This document shows positions 11,607 to 58,840 of a DNA stretch of 64,000 nucleotides, piece by piece (the stretch's first letter is position 1; every line of letters begins with the position of its first letter). Under the pieces are notes generated by a model. The model was not told the DNA's origin, did not search any database, and saw nothing but the letters and a program-made list of their open reading frames with translations. The DNA lies in the NCBI GenBank assembly GCA_001604045.1, contig LVAN01000013.1:22179-86178 (forward strand), written 5' to 3'. Origin of the DNA: Clostridiales bacterium Firm_08. GTDB lineage: Bacteria > Bacillota > Clostridia > Oscillospirales > QAKW01. The position numbers were made by a program, and so were the translations under genes.

Positions 11607-12968
11607 TTATTTCCAGCCTGTCGCTTTGCTGATCGCGGTCTGCAGCGTTTTCGCCCAGACCTTGTGCCCGGTGATATTGGGATGCCCCAGCGCCTTTTGT
11701 TCGGCGGTGAGTTTTTCGATCTGCACATAAGTCACGTTGTTCATCGAGGCGGCCAGCGTCTTGTAAACGCCCGAATAGTCCGGCGTGTGCGGGTTGAACA
11801 GCAGAAAGATCTGCGCCTTGGGGTATGCCTTGCGGACCTCCGCCAAAAACGCGCCCATCGTCTCTTTCATCTCCGCCTCGGAGACGCCCACCGTGGCGTC
11901 GTTGCCGCCGGCGTTGATGACGACGACGTCCGGCTGGTATTTGGAATAGTCCCATTTGAGGGAGGAATTGTAGATATCGGCGTAGCGGAACATCTGGGGG
12001 ATCGTCTTATTCGAATCGCCGCCGTTGTTGCGGACGATGCCGCGCCCGGACACCGCGACGACCTGCATTTCGGCGTCAAACGCCTCCGCTGTCAGCGCGG
12101 CGAAGGTGACGGTACCGTCCTCGGTCAGCGTGCTCCACTTCGCGGTGGAGGCGTTCGCGATCGCGCCGTAGCCGACGGTCAGCGAGTCGCCGATGAACTC
12201 TATTTTCCGCATTTTCGCGGCGGGCGGCGTCAGTTTTTTGCCGCCTTTCGTCAGCGTCAGCGAATACAGCCCGCAGGATGAGGAGCGCGCGTTGGTCCGC
12301 TTGACGACGCGGATGGTGTGGTCGCCTTTTTTGAGTTTGGACGCGAGCGTGACGGTGGGCATATCATCGGTGATCATAACAGACGTGCCCTTGCCGCCGT
12401 CGACATAGACTTTGATGTACGCCACGTGATCCGCGGCGCTTTCTTTGGAGGCATAATTGTTTTTGGAAACAAAAATGGCTTCCGCGCCTGTGCCGTTGAA
12501 GGAAAACTCAAACCCGGAGGCGGTCATATTGAACCAGTAGGTGTCGTTTTCGACGTAAGTCCGCCCGAACCAGCGCACCTCGCTGCCGAGATCATATTCC
12601 AGTTCGTCCCCCAGCGGCTGCGCCGTTTCTTTTTGTGTCGTTTTCGGAGTCTGCTCGTCGCTTGCGGCGGGATCTTTTTTGTCAGGGACGGACGTATCGG
12701 ACGGCGTTTGCTGTTCCGCCGTTCCGGCGGGCGTTTTGGTATCGCCGGAAGGCGTCTTGCCGGTCGCGCTGTCATCCGACGGCGCGGCCTGTTCCGTCGT
12801 CTGCGCATTTTCCGTTTCCGTCGTCTGCTGCCCGGACTGCTCCGCGCTCTGCGTTTCCGGGACGTTTTTTCGATAGGTGGAGACGAGCTCCTCCTCTTGC
12901 GGCGCGCGGCAAGAGGCAAGCGAAAGGATCAACGCGAGCATCAGCGTCAGCGTTACAAATTGTTTCAT
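11607..12968 (-). CDS. SGNH/GDSL hydrolase lipoprotein (CE2-like esterase)
   Basis: Lipobox LASC; low-complexity T/E/P linker; EFIGDSLTVGYGA (GDS) and NAGGNDA motifs. Confidence 0.85.
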   Translation of the reverse strand: MKQFVTLTLMLALILSLASCRAPQEEELVSTYRKNVPETQSAEQSGQQTTETENAQTTEQAAPSDDSATGKTPSGDTKTPAGTAEQQTPSDTSVPDKKDPAASDEQTPKTTQKETAQPLGDELEYDLGSEVRWFGRTYVENDTYWFNMTASGFEFSFNGTGAEAIFVSKNNYASKESAADHVAYIKVYVDGGKGTSVMITDDMPTVTLASKLKKGDHTIRVVKRTNARSSSCGLYSLTLTKGGKKLTPPAAKMRKIEFIGDSLTVGYGAIANASTAKWSTLTEDGTVTFAALTAEAFDAEMQVVAVSGRGIVRNNGGDSNKTIPQMFRYADIYNSSLKWDYSKYQPDVVVINAGGNDATVGVSEAEMKETMGAFLAEVRKAYPKAQIFLLFNPHTPDYSGVYKTLAASMNNVTYVQIEKLTAEQKALGHPNITGHKVWAKTLQTAISKATGWK

Positions 12969-40197: not shown

Positions 40198-42024
40198 ATG
40201 ATAAGAGCAGATATTATTTCTACAATTGGACGCGATTGCCTTACAAGCAATATAGAAAACGATGAATTCAGTTATCCGAAGGCATATTCTCAAGCGTCGC
40301 TTACATTTACGCCCATAAGGAATAGATCTGGACGCGCATTTGAAAAGCTTGACATCAGATTTGTTAATGATAATGTGACTGTTTTGGTTGAAACAAAACA
40401 AAACTTTCATACAGGGCTTGACGATGCGAAAGAACAACTGTCTGCCTATGTGGAATATGAAAAAGCGTTAACCGGCAATAGAATCATTGCCATTTTAGCC
40501 AACACGACTAACGACGATGTTATGGTGTGGCGCGGTGTCGTATCGGATGGGGATTTTATGCCCAAGGAAACCGCATTGAGAACTATAAATGAGTATGTGG
40601 ATTTCTACACTTCGAAAATCAACGATAAAGAAAAGGTGATGCAAAACACCTATAAGCTGAACGAGCTGCTTCATCGTCATAGTATTCCAGAAAAACTGCG
40701 CAGTCAATTTGTAGGTACTTGTCTTCTTGCACTCAAAAATGGTCTCGACTACTCTACACCTACACTTACTCCCGCACAGATCAGAACGAGAATTAAAGAA
40801 GTCCTTGAAAGTCTGCTCAATTCAGACATTAACAAAGCGGAAAAACTCGCATTGCTTAACAGAAACGTATTAGACGATCAATATGTGCGCCAGATGAATA
40901 TCGCCGCTTTTAGAGAAATTCTGACATTTATTGAGACAAACATACTCCCGTTTATCAACGATAAAAGCACGTCCGGTCAAGATTTACTGAACCTGTTCTT
41001 CGTTACATTCAACAAGTACGTTGGAAAGTCAGACAAAAACCAAGCGTTTACACCAGACCACATCACCGATTTTATGGCTAAGGTTGTAGGCGTTAATAAA
41101 CGATCGGTCGTCCTCGATCCATGTTGCGGCAGCGGTTCGTTCTTGGTGCGTGCAATGACGCAAGCTCTGGATGATTGTGCTACTGCCGCCGAGCAAGAAA
41201 AGGTGAAAAAGAAGCAAATATTCGGTATTGAATTTGATGAGAATATATACGGTCTTGCCACAACAAATATGCTGATCCATTCAGATGGTAATTCAAATAT
41301 TCGGCGCGGCAGTTGTTTTGCTCTTGCGGACTGGATAAAAGAGGCAAAGCCGAATGCTGTACTAATGAATCCGCCGTATAACGGGCAAAGAATTCACTTG
41401 CCTGAAAAGTATGTAAAAACTTGGCCAAAAGACAAAAAAGAAGATCCTTCTAAAGGTTTCTATTTTGTCAAATACATAGCAGAGCTTCTAAACTCCGAGA
41501 ACATTACAGCCACGCTTGCAGTTCTTCTTCCGGTAGCGTGTGCAATAGGGACAAGCGGAGAAATAGCCAGAATTAAGGAAGAAATTTTGAAAGAAAACAC
41601 TCTGAAGGCGGTGTTTACGCTACCGAATGAAATATTCTATCCCGGTGCAAGCGCATCTGCTTGTTGTATGGTGTTCGAAATAGGGAAAAAGCACGAAGAC
41701 AATCCGTTTACGTTCTTTGGATATTATAAAGATGACGGCTTCAAAAAGAAAAAGAATCTTGGCCGTGTGGAACAGATTGACATAGACACAGGCAAAAGCA
41801 GATGGATAGAAATTGAGCAAAAATGGTTAGATGCATACAAGCGGAACGAAGTGAATGATGGCTTTTCTGCTGTGCAAAAGGTTTCGGGAACTGACGAATG
41901 GCTTTGCGAAGCATATATGAAAACAGATTACAGCAAATTGACAGAACAAGACTTTCAAAATACAATCAATGAGTATCTTGCTTATCTTGTAAAGGAGGGC
42001 TTTGTTTATGAATCTAACGATTGA
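40198..42024 (+). CDS. Fused restriction nuclease / N6-adenine methyltransferase (BcgI/HsdM-like)
   Basis: N-terminal KLDIRFVND.VTVLVETKQ (PD-(D/E)xK-like); SAM motif VVLDPCCGSGSFL; NPPY motif AVLMNPPYNG. Confidence 0.85.
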   Translation: MIRADIISTIGRDCLTSNIENDEFSYPKAYSQASLTFTPIRNRSGRAFEKLDIRFVNDNVTVLVETKQNFHTGLDDAKEQLSAYVEYEKALTGNRIIAILANTTNDDVMVWRGVVSDGDFMPKETALRTINEYVDFYTSKINDKEKVMQNTYKLNELLHRHSIPEKLRSQFVGTCLLALKNGLDYSTPTLTPAQIRTRIKEVLESLLNSDINKAEKLALLNRNVLDDQYVRQMNIAAFREILTFIETNILPFINDKSTSGQDLLNLFFVTFNKYVGKSDKNQAFTPDHITDFMAKVVGVNKRSVVLDPCCGSGSFLVRAMTQALDDCATAAEQEKVKKKQIFGIEFDENIYGLATTNMLIHSDGNSNIRRGSCFALADWIKEAKPNAVLMNPPYNGQRIHLPEKYVKTWPKDKKEDPSKGFYFVKYIAELLNSENITATLAVLLPVACAIGTSGEIARIKEEILKENTLKAVFTLPNEIFYPGASASACCMVFEIGKKHEDNPFTFFGYYKDDGFKKKKNLGRVEQIDIDTGKSRWIEIEQKWLDAYKRNEVNDGFSAVQKVSGTDEWLCEAYMKTDYSKLTEQDFQNTINEYLAYLVKEGFVYESND

Positions 42025-43027
42025 TTCTTGGAAACCATTTTTGGTTTCTGACATTTTCGATATTTTCAACGGAAGTGGAATTACAAAAGAAGAGATAGAA
42101 TGCAATCCCGGCGATTTTTCTGCAATCCAAAGTGGAGAAGAAAACAACGGTTGTATCGGTAAAATTGATAAAAATTATTGTGTTTCTATGAATTATACTT
42201 ATACAGAAGAGCCTTGTTTGACAGTTGCACGAACTGGTTCCGCTGGATATGTAGCGTTTCAACCATTTGGATGCGTCGTTGGCGATTCCGCGAAAATACT
42301 CTTGTTGAAAAATAACGAAGCAAAAAGCACTTTGGTATATTTGTTTCTTAAGACCATTTTAATGGCAAACCAATACAAATACACTTATGGGCGAAAAGTT
42401 ACCGAGAGCAAATATATGGCAGAAATCATTATGCTTCCCTCAACACCAGATGGAAAGCCAGATTGGGACTATATGGAGTCATTTATAAAATCCTTAAATC
42501 ACAAGCCGTTAGCGACAGCTAACCAGGGGGGGCGCGCATCACCTACACTTGGTGTTGAATCGTGGCAAGAATTCGTAATTGGTGATTATTTTGAAGTTAA
42601 AAAGGGGAAACGGCTAACTTCGGAAGATCAAACGGAAGGTTCAACGTTATATATCGGTGCGATTGATTCCAATAACGGTGTCGCAAATAAAATCGGACAA
42701 GAACCTATTCACGATGGGAATACGATTTCGCTCAGTTACAACGGCTCAGTTGGAGAAGCGTTTTATCAGCCGGAACCCTTTTGGGCAACCGATGATGTGA
42801 ATGTCCTGTATTTCCGACCTGAAAACGGGATACAGTTTAACAAATATATAGCCCTGTTTGTGTGCGCCGTTCTTCGACAAGAAAAATATCGATATTCTTA
42901 TGGTCGTAAATGGATTTTAGATAATATGAAATCAACCGTCATTAAATTACCTTCAAAAGCAGAAAAACCCGACTGGCTTTTTATGGAAAGTTATATGAAA
43001 GCTCTACCCTATGGAGACAGAATATAA
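42002..43027 (+). CDS. Specificity (S) subunit with two target recognition domains
   Basis: Internal duplication: YKYTYGRK...PDWDYMESFIKSL and YRYSYGRK...PDWLFMESYMKAL; overlaps the methylase end. Confidence 0.85.
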   Translation: MFMNLTIDSWKPFLVSDIFDIFNGSGITKEEIECNPGDFSAIQSGEENNGCIGKIDKNYCVSMNYTYTEEPCLTVARTGSAGYVAFQPFGCVVGDSAKILLLKNNEAKSTLVYLFLKTILMANQYKYTYGRKVTESKYMAEIIMLPSTPDGKPDWDYMESFIKSLNHKPLATANQGGRASPTLGVESWQEFVIGDYFEVKKGKRLTSEDQTEGSTLYIGAIDSNNGVANKIGQEPIHDGNTISLSYNGSVGEAFYQPEPFWATDDVNVLYFRPENGIQFNKYIALFVCAVLRQEKYRYSYGRKWILDNMKSTVIKLPSKAEKPDWLFMESYMKALPYGDRI

Positions 43028-43048
43028 AAATATAAAGGAGATAGAATT

Positions 43049-44209
43049 ATGGATAATACTGTTCAGAAAGATACCGCTTTACTTTCAGAAGAAGATCGCG
43101 AAGATGAAGTGTTGCAACTCGCAGAAAATGAGAATATTGAACAAGATCAAAAAGAAGCGGTAGATAATGAGTTTGCCAAAAAAAGAGCGTTGCTTCAAAA
43201 AACTAAAATTGTGCGACAAACCTGGTCTATTTCTGAAATCTATCAGAAAATAAAGGACAAAAAACTAATCCTTGACCCTGATTATCAAAGACGGGAAATA
43301 TGGAATAATGAGAAAAAAACTGCGTTTATTGAATCTCTCTATATGGAAATAATGATTCCGCCGATTTACGTTGTCGAGATACCGGGTGAAGACATTCTTG
43401 ACGAAACAAGATATGAAGTAGTTGACGGCAAACAACGTCTAACGGCAATTATGGATTTCATTAAAGGTTCGCTTAGACTCAATGAGAGAAATCTTGAATA
43501 CTATTCGGACATTTTTGGTGGAAAAACCTTTTCTGAAATACGTGAAATCGATTCTGAAAAGACATCTCAAATGCTTTCTTCAATACTTGATATATATGTT
43601 ATTACTGCAAATTCTCCGGAGTTTACAAAGTACGATATCTTTGCCCGTTTAAATCGTGGTGCCGAAAAACTCAAAGTAAACGAGATAAGAAGGGCAATTT
43701 ATAAGTCAAAGATACTAGGATGGATTACGGAATATGTTGATAACCAGCTAAAGAATCACAAAGAATCATATGCGTCTATTTTCTCTAAAAACGATATAAA
43801 GAGATATGAGGATTATGGACGTATGTATAGGTCTCTTGCTTTTTTCATACGCTCAAACGTTGAAGATGAAATAGTAGATGGATACAATTCAAGGCCTCGT
43901 GATATGATAAATACCGTTTTGCAAGAGATTCAACGTGGGAAAGTCACCATTGAAAAAGATAAGCTAATGCTTATTCTTGATAAAACTATACAGTTGATGA
44001 GAGCATTTGCGGGAGCACCAAACGGTGATTATGTAATTGATTCTATTATCCCATTTGTGAATCAATTTGACGGAGTATGCGACGAAAAAATTGCTAAGGA
44101 GATCTTCGAAAACGAGGAAATAAAGAAAACTCTTGAAAAATCACCAGCTACAACGAGCAATGTAAACAAACGGTTTGCTCTTGTCAAACAGCTCATAATG
44201 GAGAAATAA
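43049..44209 (+). CDS. DUF262 domain-containing protein
   Basis: LILDPDYQRREIWNNEKKTAFIESLYMEIMIPPIYV and YEVVDGKQRLTAIMDF, ParB-like DGQQR-type motif. Confidence 0.88.
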   Translation: MDNTVQKDTALLSEEDREDEVLQLAENENIEQDQKEAVDNEFAKKRALLQKTKIVRQTWSISEIYQKIKDKKLILDPDYQRREIWNNEKKTAFIESLYMEIMIPPIYVVEIPGEDILDETRYEVVDGKQRLTAIMDFIKGSLRLNERNLEYYSDIFGGKTFSEIREIDSEKTSQMLSSILDIYVITANSPEFTKYDIFARLNRGAEKLKVNEIRRAIYKSKILGWITEYVDNQLKNHKESYASIFSKNDIKRYEDYGRMYRSLAFFIRSNVEDEIVDGYNSRPRDMINTVLQEIQRGKVTIEKDKLMLILDKTIQLMRAFAGAPNGDYVIDSIIPFVNQFDGVCDEKIAKEIFENEEIKKTLEKSPATTSNVNKRFALVKQLIMEK

Positions 44210-44210
44210 A

Positions 44211-44810
44211 ATGGGAACAATTACGGGAATAGATCAGGAAACACTGTCTCTTCAAATCCGATCTCTTATGGTGTATGGCTTTCTTGACGAATACAACCGG
44301 CTCGAAAGAACGATACGAAACGTATTTGAAGATAGTATTGAAGTTTTGCCAGCAAATTTCAAGCAACAACTTTATTTTTATTACGGTGGAAAAATCGGAA
44401 CATATATTGAATATGAGTCTCAAAGTATAAAAATAAAGGAATTGAACTATACCGAGAAGGAGAATTTTAAGGATTTTTCAATAAATCAAATAATTAAGAT
44501 ATTCAAAAACAACAAGAGTTTGGAGCGTTTCAATTTTTCAATAGAATCGATCCAACGACCAACAATTATTTTTCCTTTTTATGATTGTATTATTCGATTA
44601 CTTAATATGCGAAACAAATTGGCACACGAAGTAGCCGAGTTGAATTTTAAGGATGGTGATCTCGTTGAACTTCTATCGCCTGAACAAATAGCTCAAGAAC
44701 CATTTGTTTTGCTTCAGAGTTATGATCTGCTAAAAATGGATGAGATGACACAGTATATAGCGAGTAATATAATATATATACGTAAAATCATTACAATGTT
44801 AGCAAATTGA
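44211..44810 (+). CDS. HEPN-like domain protein (Rx4H motif)
   Basis: 199 aa helical protein with MRNKLAHEV (RNKLAH), 1-nt gap from the DUF262 gene. Confidence 0.55.
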   Translation: MGTITGIDQETLSLQIRSLMVYGFLDEYNRLERTIRNVFEDSIEVLPANFKQQLYFYYGGKIGTYIEYESQSIKIKELNYTEKENFKDFSINQIIKIFKNNKSLERFNFSIESIQRPTIIFPFYDCIIRLLNMRNKLAHEVAELNFKDGDLVELLSPEQIAQEPFVLLQSYDLLKMDEMTQYIASNIIYIRKIITMLAN

Positions 44811-44855: not shown

Positions 44856-45152
44856 TTATGCAAGGACGATCTCATTTAAAACGATCTCGTTGACCCGGTC
44901 GCGGATGGAGTTCATCGCGCCGACCCACGCCATCTGGTCGCGGCGTTTCAGTTCTTCGGTGACGCCTTCTTGTTTAGCAAGTTGCTTCACCAACTGAAAA
45001 CACATCTCATCCGCTTGCTCGTCTACACTTTGAAGATAGGGGATGAGATTCCCGTTCATCCGCATCACGCCGATTACGGATGGTTTGGTTGCTTTCAGGT
45101 GTTCATAGTGTCTTTGTCCCCAGATTCCTACGCCTTTTAAGTAGTCTTTCAT
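44856..45152 (-). CDS. TnpV-like transposon-encoded protein
   Basis: IGVMRMNGNLIPYLQSVDEQADEM...QEGVTEELKRRDQMAWVGAMNSIRDRVNEIVLNEIV matches my recollection of TnpV. Confidence 0.75.
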   Translation of the reverse strand: MKDYLKGVGIWGQRHYEHLKATKPSVIGVMRMNGNLIPYLQSVDEQADEMCFQLVKQLAKQEGVTEELKRRDQMAWVGAMNSIRDRVNEIVLNEIVLA

Positions 45153-45227
45153 AGTGCAATACCTCCTTTGCGATCTCATTGTATCGAAAAAGAAGCGAAA
45201 AGAAAAATGTGCGATTTTCTAAACGAC

Positions 45228-55681: not shown

Positions 55682-56008
55682 GTGGCAAAAAAAGAATATG
55701 CTGAGGGAAGTTTCGGCGCATTTTTCGTCAAGCTTATTAAAGAGCATGATTATTCACAAGCGAGATTTGCTTCGGACCTGGGCGTTTCTAAAACCTATCT
55801 GTTCGATGTGTTCAATGGTCGAGTTAAACCACCCACCCCTGAAATGCAAGACCGTATTATTGAACTTTTGCAGCTTTCTGATGACGAGAAGGCACTGTTT
55901 TACAGCAAAGCTGCGGATGGACGTCATGAACTTCCAAAAGATGTTGTCGAATTTCTGAAAAATAATCAAACTGAGATAAACAAACTTAGAGAAAGAATGA
56001 GGGCGTAA
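55682..56008 (+). CDS. XRE-family HTH regulator, candidate R-M controller protein (GTG start)
   Basis: YSQARFASDLGVSKTYLFDVFNGRVKPPTPEMQDRIIELLQ. Confidence 0.8.
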   Translation: MAKKEYAEGSFGAFFVKLIKEHDYSQARFASDLGVSKTYLFDVFNGRVKPPTPEMQDRIIELLQLSDDEKALFYSKAADGRHELPKDVVEFLKNNQTEINKLRERMRA

Positions 56009-56010
56009 TT

Positions 56011-57873
56011 ATGGCAAACGAAACAAAAACATATGCTATTTTCCGAGATATGCTTAGGGGCAAAGGCTATTATGACGATAAAGATATCGTTGTTGAAGAG
56101 CAAAAAAGCGATAATGCAAAAATCGACAAATTGTTAAAAAACGCCTCTAAAAAGGGGAACAAAAACGGATATCCCGACTTTATTCTGTATTCAAAAGCTT
56201 ATCCTGAATTGATAATTGTTGTAGAAGCTAAAGCAGATATAAATAAACACGAGAGTGAAACACGAGATAATTACGCTGACTATGCGGTTGACGGAGCATT
56301 GTTATACGCCTCCTTCTTGTCAAAAGAGTTCGATGTACTTGCAATAGGCATTAGCGGAGAGGAAGAACACCGATTTAAGATGTCCCATTATCTTCACCTT
56401 AAAGAAGATAAAAAAGCAAATCCAATATTTGATGATATTCTATTAACTGTAAACGAGTATTTTGATGGCATCAATCAGAGCAACTATAAATTCAATCAGG
56501 ATTATGCAAAATTAATTGCTTATACGAAAACTCTAAACGAGACACTTCATGCAAAGAAAATCAAGGAATCTCAACGTGCCCTGCTCATAAGCGGAATTTT
56601 GATTGCGTTGAAAGACAGAGCTTTTAGAGACGGATATAAAAAACACGAAAAAGTAACACAACTGGTTAAGTCTCTATATACCGCTATAGAAGGACAACTT
56701 TCAAGTGGTGATATTCCTCAAAAGAAAATAGATGTTCTAACACAGGCATTCAGTTTTGTTAAGACAAATCCTACGTTGACTGATGCCAAAACAGGAAAAA
56801 AGTTTCTTGAAGACCTTATTGACGAGATTGACCGTGAAATTAACGGTTTTATGGTTACACATCAGTATGTAGATACTGTCAGTCAATTTTACATAGAGTT
56901 TTTAAGATATGCCAATAATGATAAAGGTCTTGGTATTGTATTAACTCCACCTCATATTACAGATTTATTTGCAGAATTAGCTGATGTCGATAAAAGCAGT
57001 GTAGTATTGGATAACTGTTGCGGAACAGGTGGCTTCTTGATTAGCGCTATGAAGCGCATGTTAATTGATGCCAAGGGCGACCAAGCAAAAGAAAAAGACA
57101 TCAAGGGAAAACAGTTGATTGGCATTGAATTCCAAGATGATATTTATACTCTTCTCATTTCAAATATGATTATTCATCGAGATGGCAGAACAAATATTTA
57201 TTGGGGAGACTGTTTCAAAGAAATCGATGACGTTAAGAAAAATTTCAAGCCAACTGTTGGCCTTTTGAATCCGCCATATAAAACTAAGGCTGCAGACATT
57301 GAGGAGTTTGAGTACATCCTAAATAACCTTGATGCATTGGAACCGGGTGGTACATGTATAGCTATTATTCCTATCAGTTGTGTTATTGAAAAGACAACTA
57401 TTGCGGAAAACCTCAGAAAGAGAGTTTTAGAAAAACATACTCTCGAAGCTGTGCTTTCTATGCCCGAAGAACTTTTCCATAATTCAAAAGTTAACACGGT
57501 TACCTGTGCTGTAATTATAACCTCCCACAAGCCTCACCCAAAAGGCAAGAAAACATGGTTTGCGTATTGCCGTGATGACGGATTTATTAAAATGAAAAAC
57601 AAAGGACGTATTGATGCTAATCATACATGGAACGACATTCGGGATAGATGGGTTTCGGCGTTTAGAAATCGTGAGATAATTGACAAATTCAGTCTAATGC
57701 GCGAGGTAAGTGAAAAAGATGAATGGTGCGTAGAAGCTTATCTTGAAACAAATTATGATGAATTCTCTTTTCAGGATTACGAAACTACAGTTAAGAAATA
57801 CCTTATGTTTAACTTTATGGATATGACTGATATATCAAGAGGTGACGAGCAAGATGAAGACATGCAAGATTAG
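56011..57873 (+). CDS. Fused restriction nuclease / N6-adenine methyltransferase (BcgI/HsdM-like)
   Basis: N-terminal GYPDFILYSKAYPELIIVVEAKAD (PD-ExK); VVLDNCCGTGGFL; GLLNPPYKTK. Confidence 0.87.
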   Translation: MANETKTYAIFRDMLRGKGYYDDKDIVVEEQKSDNAKIDKLLKNASKKGNKNGYPDFILYSKAYPELIIVVEAKADINKHESETRDNYADYAVDGALLYASFLSKEFDVLAIGISGEEEHRFKMSHYLHLKEDKKANPIFDDILLTVNEYFDGINQSNYKFNQDYAKLIAYTKTLNETLHAKKIKESQRALLISGILIALKDRAFRDGYKKHEKVTQLVKSLYTAIEGQLSSGDIPQKKIDVLTQAFSFVKTNPTLTDAKTGKKFLEDLIDEIDREINGFMVTHQYVDTVSQFYIEFLRYANNDKGLGIVLTPPHITDLFAELADVDKSSVVLDNCCGTGGFLISAMKRMLIDAKGDQAKEKDIKGKQLIGIEFQDDIYTLLISNMIIHRDGRTNIYWGDCFKEIDDVKKNFKPTVGLLNPPYKTKAADIEEFEYILNNLDALEPGGTCIAIIPISCVIEKTTIAENLRKRVLEKHTLEAVLSMPEELFHNSKVNTVTCAVIITSHKPHPKGKKTWFAYCRDDGFIKMKNKGRIDANHTWNDIRDRWVSAFRNREIIDKFSLMREVSEKDEWCVEAYLETNYDEFSFQDYETTVKKYLMFNFMDMTDISRGDEQDEDMQD

Positions 57874-58840
57874 TGATTTGTTTTTAGTTGATTACGGAGT
57901 AGACCTTGAATTGAATGCATTAGAAAAAGATATTAATGGCATCAATTTTGTGTCTCGAACCTCTAAAAACAATGGTGTTTCTGCGAAGGTTAAGCAGATA
58001 GCAAGTATTGAACCACTTCCGGCAGGAACAATTACTGTTGCGTGTGGTGGGTCTGTAATGGAAGCGTTTTTGCAAATGTCTCCATATTATTCAGGAAGAG
58101 ATTTGTACTATCTAAGACCAAAATCGGATATGAGCAACGAAATTAAACTTTATTATTGTCATTGCCTTCGTTCAAATAAATATAAATACTCATACGGGCG
58201 GCAGGCCAATGTCACATTACCAGACTTACTCGTTCCAACTCTAGACAGCATACCTGATTATGTTTTCGCAATGTCTTTAAAATACTACGGCGAAACTTTA
58301 ATAAAGCAAACCGAATTTCCCAGAGATAATTCAAATTATCCGCCAAACGCAAAGTCTGTTCCTTTGGAAAAATTATTTGTTGTTGAGAACGGAATAGCCT
58401 CGTCGCAAGTCGTAAGAAGCGAAGAAAAAGAAAGCGAAAACTGGGTTCCATATATCAGACCGTCATATAGACAAGAAACCAGCATAGATGCCTTTGTTAA
58501 TAAAAAACTTGTTTCCGAAGACAAACTATTCCCCGCTGGAACTCTTTATGTTTCGACCGACGGTCAAGGCAGTCACACTTTTTCCTATGTTTCCACATTT
58601 GAATTTGTTCCTAATAGCAATGTTTCCGTTTTGATACCTCGTCGAAAGATGAGTTTGCAGGAAAAACTGTATTATGCTCAATGCATAACTAACAATAGAT
58701 ATAAGTTTTCCTATGGAAGAAAACCTAAAGGTGACAGACTAAAAAAAGTGCGTTTGCCCGAATACCCACCAAAATATGTAACAGATTATACTATTGATAA
58801 AGTGGTAAGTAGTTTTTTTGAGGTTTTGAATATCGTGTAA
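57842..58840 (+). CDS. Specificity (S) subunit
   Basis: Two TRD-like halves ending YKYSYGRQ and YKFSYGRK; overlaps the methylase end. Confidence 0.82.
   Translation: MTSKMKTCKISDLFLVDYGVDLELNALEKDINGINFVSRTSKNNGVSAKVKQIASIEPLPAGTITVACGGSVMEAFLQMSPYYSGRDLYYLRPKSDMSNEIKLYYCHCLRSNKYKYSYGRQANVTLPDLLVPTLDSIPDYVFAMSLKYYGETLIKQTEFPRDNSNYPPNAKSVPLEKLFVVENGIASSQVVRSEEKESENWVPYIRPSYRQETSIDAFVNKKLVSEDKLFPAGTLYVSTDGQGSHTFSYVSTFEFVPNSNVSVLIPRRKMSLQEKLYYAQCITNNRYKFSYGRKPKGDRLKKVRLPEYPPKYVTDYTIDKVVSSFFEVLNIV

Follow-up and report, generated by a model that had tools for sequence, protein, structure and literature searches.

In restriction-modification (RM) systems of the BcgI type (type IIB/IIG), a PD-(D/E)xK nuclease is fused to an N6-adenine methylase and is accompanied by a separate specificity (S) subunit with two target recognition domains (TRDs). 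A cluster of similar layout was analyzed here in a stretch of 64,000 nucleotides (nt) from Clostridiales bacterium Firm_08 (GenBank assembly GCA_001604045.1, contig LVAN01000013.1, positions 22,179 to 86,178 of the forward strand), referred to throughout as the window. The cluster consists of four co-directional open reading frames (ORFs); genes 1 and 2 resemble a BcgI-type RM unit, and genes 3 and 4 resemble a DUF262 protein and a HEPN-like partner. The locus differs from the BcgI type in that defense genes, here called cargo, lie directly 3' of the S gene. We think it fairly probable that the window holds a two-layer defense operon, composed of an autonomous RM unit and an exchangeable slot for a second line of defense.

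What is new in this locus is the exchangeable slot directly after S, the function of which is predicted; the DUF262-HEPN layout itself is already known. In PD-T4-2 of Escherichia coli (Vassallo 2022), a DUF262 protein is encoded with a HEPN protein. The portion of PMC10952713 used here names PD-T4-2 among the DUF262 systems as well as among the HEPN systems, ties DUF262 in PD-T4-2, Menshen, and Dazbog to phage defense, and presents the DUF262 nucleotide pocket as a switch in BrxU and SspE; in an excerpt of PMC9519451, T4 plaquing rises upon deletion of PD-T4-2, and PrrC and GmrSD are described in an excerpt of PMC12707154. Moreover, Table 1 of Anantharaman 2013 (PMC3710099) places the HEPN family MAE_28990 in an operon with ParB nuclease and DNA methylase genes, and other passages of that paper propose a multi-pronged defense by analogy with PrrC, link at least 16 HEPN clades to RM systems, and note that HEPN proteins are often toxins. 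To the extent of these passages, the ParB nuclease-methylase-HEPN operons and the PrrC analogy anticipate a coupling of DUF262-HEPN pairs to modification.

The four ORFs lie where the initial annotation had placed them (Table 1), in an AT-rich island across which the G+C content falls from ~0.55 in the surroundings to 0.36-0.41. Genes 1 and 2 do overlap, as had been noted, by 17 nt when counted from ATG starts or by 23 nt from a TTG start of gene 2 at 42002, rather than by the 22 nt first given; gene 2 and gene 3 are separated by 21 nt, and gene 3 and gene 4 by 1 nt. The ORF list of the window contained no HsdR-type ORF within or next to the cluster, in agreement with the earlier remark that a separate HsdR is missing. 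Gene 1 matched PF02384 (N6_Mtase) of Pfam at 3.5e-34 and, as its best PADLOC model, REase_MTase_IIG at 5.9e-49. Residues D52, E65, and K67 were kept in 22/22 aligned gene 1 sequences, and the NPPY motif was kept across the alignment except in truncated or divergent rows, which bears out the PD-(D/E)xK amino terminus and adenine methylase originally proposed. Gene 2 matched PF01420 (Methylase_S) at 1.5e-35 in two stretches, as anticipated for two TRDs, and PADLOC Specificity_II at 1.6e-48; its C-terminal motif (LPYGDRI) is common to relatives. Genes 1 and 2 are therefore predicted to form a BcgI-like fused nuclease-methylase with a two-TRD S subunit, a likeness drawn from this architecture and the PADLOC models. 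The initial view of such a unit with an operon-like DUF262-HEPN pair downstream was thus supported.

Table 1. Features of the window (window positions) and of loci in relatives (locus label before the colon)
Feature	Coordinates	Strand	Basis
Gene 1, predicted fused PD-(D/E)xK nuclease and N6-adenine methylase, 608 aa	40198..42024	+	PF02384, REase_MTase_IIG
Nuclease motif of gene 1, D52-x12-E65-x-K67	40351..40398	+	residue positions from alignment
Methylase motif IV of gene 1, NPPY (N391-Y394)	41368..41379	+	sequence
Gene 2, predicted S subunit, two TRDs, C-terminal LPYGDRI	42008..43027	+	PF01420, Specificity_II
S-cargo junction, 21 nt, with aaggag; cargo switch point in relatives	43028..43048	+	
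Gene 3, DUF262 (GmrSD_N) protein, no HNH/DUF1524 domain	43049..44209	+	PF03235, NsnA, PD-T4-2_A
VDGKQR of gene 3, DUF262 nucleotide-pocket motif, residues 125-130	43421..43438	+	sequence
Gene 4, HEPN-like, 199 aa, probable RNase partner of gene 3	44211..44810	+	Rx4H, position, model
RNKLAH of gene 4, HEPN catalytic-type motif, residues 134-139	44610..44627	+	sequence
TnpV transposon-encoded protein	44856-45179	-	PF14198, 1.2e-28
Second AT-rich island	55682-58840		
382-aa protein with RRTVAHG	L105:5027-6175		by eye
Cargo pair of L107	L107:10055-12185		
Recurrence of the L107 pair	L150:5989-8186		
Right-hand element (RE), ~135 nt	L110:14625-14764		
RE	L141:12800-12939		
RE	L143:5064-5203	-	
RE, diverged copy	L107, about 12213-12360		
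SpR18_sRNA	L110:7605-7735		Rfam RF02446
SpR18_sRNA	L141:7185-7317		Rfam RF02446
DUF6414 protein	L037:584-1450		Pfam

Relatives of gene 1 were found in 10 of 391 genomes of the class (own genome included) at 1e-40, in 6 of 398 genomes of the phylum at 1e-60, and in 1 of 32 genomes of the family of G654; with gene 1 of locus L110 as the query at 1e-100, matches were obtained in 2/188 genomes of the order of G508 and in 6/239 of the order of G474. Two plasmid records and eight loci on viral contigs were added, and no relative was found in phages. Gene 1 aligned from residue 1 in 22 distinct loci (the window, L105-L111, L118, L119, L122-L124, L127-L129, L141, L142/143, and L144-L147); S is fused to gene 1 in L106 and L123. 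Loci L125 and L126, whose match statistics were near-identical to those of L128, were dropped so that this locus was counted once. L130 and L131 were dropped for a partial gene 1, and so were L112, L113, L120, and L121, the gene 1 alignments of which begin only at about residue 142-154; these four lie outside the full-length clade. Among these dropped loci, L113 has a 355-amino-acid (aa) ORF of no confident family 164 nt after S, and L121 has a 338-aa ORF, outside the family scans, 53 nt after the gene.

In 7 of the 22 loci, the S stop codon is followed, after 9-29 nt, by the start of a co-directional ORF. The window carries its DUF262-HEPN pair there (21 nt after S), L105 carries KwaA/KwaB of Kiwa (12 nt; PADLOC) followed by a 382-aa protein with an RRTVAHG motif, L111 carries GajA/GajB of Gabija (9 nt; PADLOC), L110 and L141 carry DolA/DolB of Dodola (29 nt; in L141 assigned by 95-97% identity to L110 rather than by hidden Markov model [HMM]), L107 carries a pair of 319 and 392 aa without a family (26 nt), and L143 carries an ATPase of ~770 aa (16 nt from its second ATG, with an upstream in-frame ATG that overlaps S). 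The L143 protein was covered by the Pfam scan only, in which AAA_21 (0.0015) fell below the cut-off; judging from the appearance of its sequence, we take it to be a PHP-plus-ATPase (TrlF-like) protein. Because relatives carry different antiviral systems exactly there, the position after S acts like a plug-in socket. The other 15 loci have no co-directional ORF of at least 150 aa within 60 nt, and genes 1 and 2 are complete alone; in L118, a dehydrogenase lies 114 nt away.

Replacement of the cargo was observed at the very end of S. The hosts of L110 and L111 belong to different families, yet the two loci share gene 1 DNA at 96.7% identity over 1276 nt and the 3' half of S at 94.9%; the match breaks off 7 nt (L110) and 4 nt (L111) short of the last base of the S stop codon, and L110 continues with Dodola and L111 with Gabija. 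Likewise, 73-74% DNA identity between the window and L105 extends to 43023, 4 nt from the last base of the S stop codon (43027), after which their cargo differs. Recognition domains and cargo appear to be exchanged independently of each other, since in L141 and L110 the S proteins are only 33% identical, whereas gene 1 DNA is 93% identical and the DNA from the S end through the entire Dodola pair is 95.6% identical. After the cargo of L110, L141, and L143 there is a right-hand element (RE) of ~135 nt, the copies of which are 87-92% identical; a diverged copy follows the L107 cargo, and the RE also occurs in L151 and L152. In the viral contig L152, it follows what are presumably an OLD-like ATPase and a UvrD-like ORF, 3' of a presumed type III Res-like ORF, and this ATPase aligns to GajA of L111 at 2e-9. 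The RE is absent from the window, a scan of plasmids gave no match to it, and neither an ORF nor an Rfam match was found in it. A structured RNA was not supported (36 predicted pairs, only 4 with changes on both sides, and an unfavorable covariation term). Nor was a dispersed repeat: each of four genomes had a single match, which lay at the cargo end in three and was a partial 42-nt match elsewhere in G474.

As a control for defense content, 63 flanking genes (up to two before gene 1 and one after the RM unit) were compared with PADLOC at 1e-10, and AbiEii, mad2, Csa3, and PDC-M28B were found, with one member per model and hence about 4/63 by name. The first slot gene was PADLOC positive in 5/7 loci (the window, L105, L110, and L111 by HMM and L141 by identity; L107 negative; L143 outside the PADLOC scan) versus at most 4/63 in the flanks (Fisher p = 2e-4). 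With Dodola counted once, the proportion was 4/6 (p = 1e-3). Terminators were called after S in 6/15 cargo-free loci versus one weak call in the 7 cargo loci, a difference that was not significant (Fisher p = 0.24).

Within the other slots, several further observations were made. The L105 protein with RRTVAHG, soon after KwaB, looks HEPN-like by eye and has no Pfam or PADLOC family. The L107 pair encodes a soluble protein and a protein with C-terminal membrane segments; it recurs on a Staphylococcus epidermidis plasmid (L150), where the first protein is 29% identical over 87% and the second is only weakly similar (E 0.005) but, like its L107 counterpart, has C-terminal hydrophobic segments, and where the pair adjoins annotated methyltransferase and DEAD/DEAH helicase genes. 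From its sequence, this uncatalogued pair is a promising candidate for a two-gene defense system not yet described; an assignment of its 319-aa protein to KwaB was rejected, as no similarity to KwaB of L105 was found. In both Dodola loci, SpR18_sRNA matches lie a few hundred nucleotides upstream of the RM unit. GajA of L111 had no match in plasmids at 1e-100, and several single-protein scans of viral contigs, gene 4 included, gave no match.

Gene 3 had been assigned to DUF262 at the outset, and it matched PF03235 (DUF262/GmrSD_N) at 7.8e-25 over residues 61-218, with ParB_N below threshold. Among PADLOC models, it scored higher with NsnA (9.8e-50), of which no account was recognized in the literature searched, than with PD-T4-2_A (1.3e-23), and a search of solved structures gave no match. 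Its VDGKQR aligns with IDGQQR and LDGQQR in relatives, a motif of the (I/V)DGxQR type shared with the type IV restriction proteins GmrSD and BrxU. An identity with GmrSD was rejected, however, because neither gene 3 nor gene 4 has a Pfam match to the DUF1524 (HNH) nuclease; rather, the partner of gene 3 is HEPN-like. This description of gene 4 is probable rather than proven and is based on RNKLAH, which aligns with the R...AH motif of DUF262-partner proteins, on the location of gene 4 just 3' of a DUF262 gene, and on a structural model of modest confidence. The AlphaFold2 (AF2) model is all-helical, with a mean predicted local distance difference test value (pLDDT) of 63.6 and a predicted template modeling score (pTM) of 0.48. 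Foldseek returned nothing for it at E <= 0.001. The six best VIA rows (Z 8.9 to 7.1) were HEPN toxins (Z 8.9-8.6; the top row a HEPN toxin chain with a root mean square deviation of 4.5 and 136 aligned residues) and then HI0074 and YutE, which we take to be HEPN-fold proteins. These scores lie below the Z of 13 advised for helical bundles and are hence weak, and gene 4 fits the Rx4-6H motif and all-helical fold of the HEPN superfamily weakly.

The pair differs from each of its described counterparts. Unlike PD-T4-2, it is linked to an RM operon, and gene 4 had no match at E <= 0.1 to PF18735, the HEPN partner family of the PD-T4-2 type. The MAE_28990 operons, as given in Table 1 of PMC3710099, also join a HEPN protein, a DUF262/ParB-fold protein, and a DNA methylase; gene 4, however, had no match to PF18737 (MAE_28990 HEPN) at E <= 0.1, and the RM unit of the window pairs a BcgI-like fusion with an S gene of its own. 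EcoprrI-PrrC is similar in that a HEPN RNase, possibly a second line, is encoded with an RM system, but PrrC, which is encoded in a type IC locus, joins an ABC ATPase and HEPN in one protein, whereas the window has separate DUF262 and HEPN-like proteins in an exchangeable slot.

Beyond the window, a genome contig scan yielded 80 gene 3 relatives across many phyla. In the 75 loci where DUF262 was full length and a partner was called, 63 partners had an Rx4H-type motif, compared with 30 of 488 ORFs of 140-400 aa that were taken from these loci as controls, and the PF18735 cut-off was passed by 7/8 scanned partners (L005, L006, L014, L015, L032, L049, and L059; L036 fell below). DUF262-HEPN thus appears to be a widespread autonomous two-gene module, older than the window locus. 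A co-directional ORF lies <= 60 nt upstream of DUF262 in 18 of the 79 loci having an upstream ORF. Fourteen of these were scanned, the short ORFs of L004, L023, L026, and L081 being left out, and 7/14 were RM proteins, a raw count with no background rate for other families: N6_N4 methylase in L014, L032, and L044, DpnII in L036, Eco57I in L049, and type I S in L015 and L059. The remaining seven were a topoisomerase, DUF6414, ORF6N, BrxL, a PAPS-reductase-like protein, and two without a match. Since these RM proteins are of several types, the coupling of the module to modification systems appears to be recurrent and not bound to one RM type. In L044, the DUF262 ORF is short and the ORF downstream lacks the Rx4H motif. 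On Rhodococcus opacus pROB02, a full-length gene 3 relative has a cytosine methylase gene on one side and an annotated HEPN gene on the other and adjoins a NaeI-type system. A DUF6414 protein in a Blautia genome (L037) overlaps the start of a DUF262-HEPN pair; DolA of L110 matches the same Pfam family.

In a two-layer operon, S would pick the site, the gene 1 protein would methylate host adenine, and its PD-(D/E)xK domain would cut unmodified DNA. Genes 3 and 4, as a DUF262-HEPN module of the PD-T4-2 layout co-transcribed with the RM genes, would act when this first layer fails. The DUF262 protein would sense infection via its nucleotide pocket (the VDGKQR switch), as in BrxU and SspE, with modified phage DNA that escapes the first layer as a possible trigger, and would then release the HEPN protein, resulting in RNA cleavage. 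The second layer would occupy the slot directly 3' of S, where the RM family carries interchangeable anti-phage modules. The two layers are probably linked by shared expression and shared transfer rather than by direct gating.

Several observations weigh against a two-layer operon. Over all 22 loci, the enrichment of defense genes is weak (5/22 versus 4/63, p = 0.046), and cargo is absent from 15 of them. In 4 of the 7 cargo loci, moreover, gene 1 is broken: by a frameshift, possibly an assembly error, in L105; by inserts with integrase-core domains (Pfam), presumably of the IS3 type in L110 and the IS30 type in L111; and by a large insertion in L142/143 (G1405), where gene 1 is interrupted near codon 335, its two parts are separated by ~90 kb of the same contig, as would follow from a split by a large element, and S is frameshifted too. 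The window, L107, and L141 have an unbroken gene 1. Judged by HMM coverage, the cargo genes in L105, L110, and L111 seem to be full length, so that cargo can outlive the RM unit; it is kept without the first layer, and therefore the coupling need not be functional. As for gene 4, the motif, position, and modelled fold that speak for the HEPN assignment of the initial annotation stand, but no Pfam or PADLOC family, HEPN families included, was matched above its cut-off. The assignment is only probable because HEPN proteins were included in the input alignment of the modest AF2 model and Z stayed below 13. Gene 4 relatives were found in 1 of the 295 genomes of the order sample, its own, and in no plasmids, phages, or viral contigs. 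The explanation as a whole is a prediction from sequence.

Plain defense-island clustering, by which the RM unit and the DUF262-HEPN pair would have become adjacent as the island accumulated, neither as an operon nor functionally linked, accommodates the persistence of cargo where gene 1 is broken and the second RM pair ~11 kb away in the window. It also accommodates the fact that DUF262-HEPN mostly occurs without RM directly upstream, as a tight upstream ORF of any kind is found at only the 18/79 loci given above. We nevertheless regard clustering as unlikely, because the flanks are poor in defense genes, all seven cargo genes are co-directional and close to S, and replacement at the S end was seen in two independent comparisons. 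A co-conserved four-gene system, as the initial annotation had suggested, was rejected: a neighborhood check for the four-gene order did not find it elsewhere, genes 3 and 4 being behind S in 0/21 other full-length gene 1 loci, and gene 4 had no relative in the 294 other genomes of the order sample; a lack of co-conservation had been named by the initial annotation itself as refuting its proposal. The second-line idea that went with it holds insofar as the same slot in relatives contains other anti-phage systems, while genes 3 and 4 look like an autonomous module of known layout.

A dedicated system in which the DUF262-HEPN arm is under the direct control of RM status, in the way that EcoprrI gates PrrC, would fit the tight spacing, the PrrC precedent with its many RM-linked HEPN clades in the passages of PMC3710099, and the presence of DUF262-HEPN behind several RM types; yet the order does not recur, the same RM family carries other cargo, and the proposal draws on gene order, so that we hold it to be very unlikely. 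Still less probable is that genes 3 and 4 are a toxin-antitoxin-like addiction module that stabilizes the RM unit and has no part in phage defense. The other cargo in the slot consists of catalogued phage-defense systems (Kiwa, Gabija, and Dodola), and the portion of PMC10952713 used links DUF262 in PD-T4-2, Menshen, and Dazbog to phage defense, against which stand the small two-gene size and the frequent toxin role of HEPN proteins noted in PMC3710099.

Two other features of the window were recorded. Directly after gene 4, on the opposite strand, is a TnpV gene, which suggests a mobile-element edge. The second AT-rich island encodes a helix-turn-helix regulator and the second RM pair, without cargo; its fused REase-methylase matched PADLOC REase_MTase_IIG at 4.5e-193 and is 30% identical to gene 1 over ~500 residues, and its S protein matched Specificity_II at 2.2e-79.

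More tentatively, and with considerable doubt on our part, the BcgI-like RM family may be a docking platform, on which cassettes are swapped between the 3' end of S (the LPYGDRI codons) and, in one sub-clade, the RE, and are co-expressed as a matched second line. No description of such a slot was recognized in the literature surveyed, a survey that was not made in depth. The discovery of defense genes usually relies on guilt by association across entire islands, and a precise slot with complete Kiwa, Gabija, Dodola, and DUF262-HEPN modules would give a far sharper discovery rule. If the platform is real, cargo such as the L107 pair would represent undescribed defense systems, found by reading the slot. 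Moreover, the slot would offer natural pairs, with one RM system and different cargo, in which the cooperation of RM with a second line of defense could be tested.

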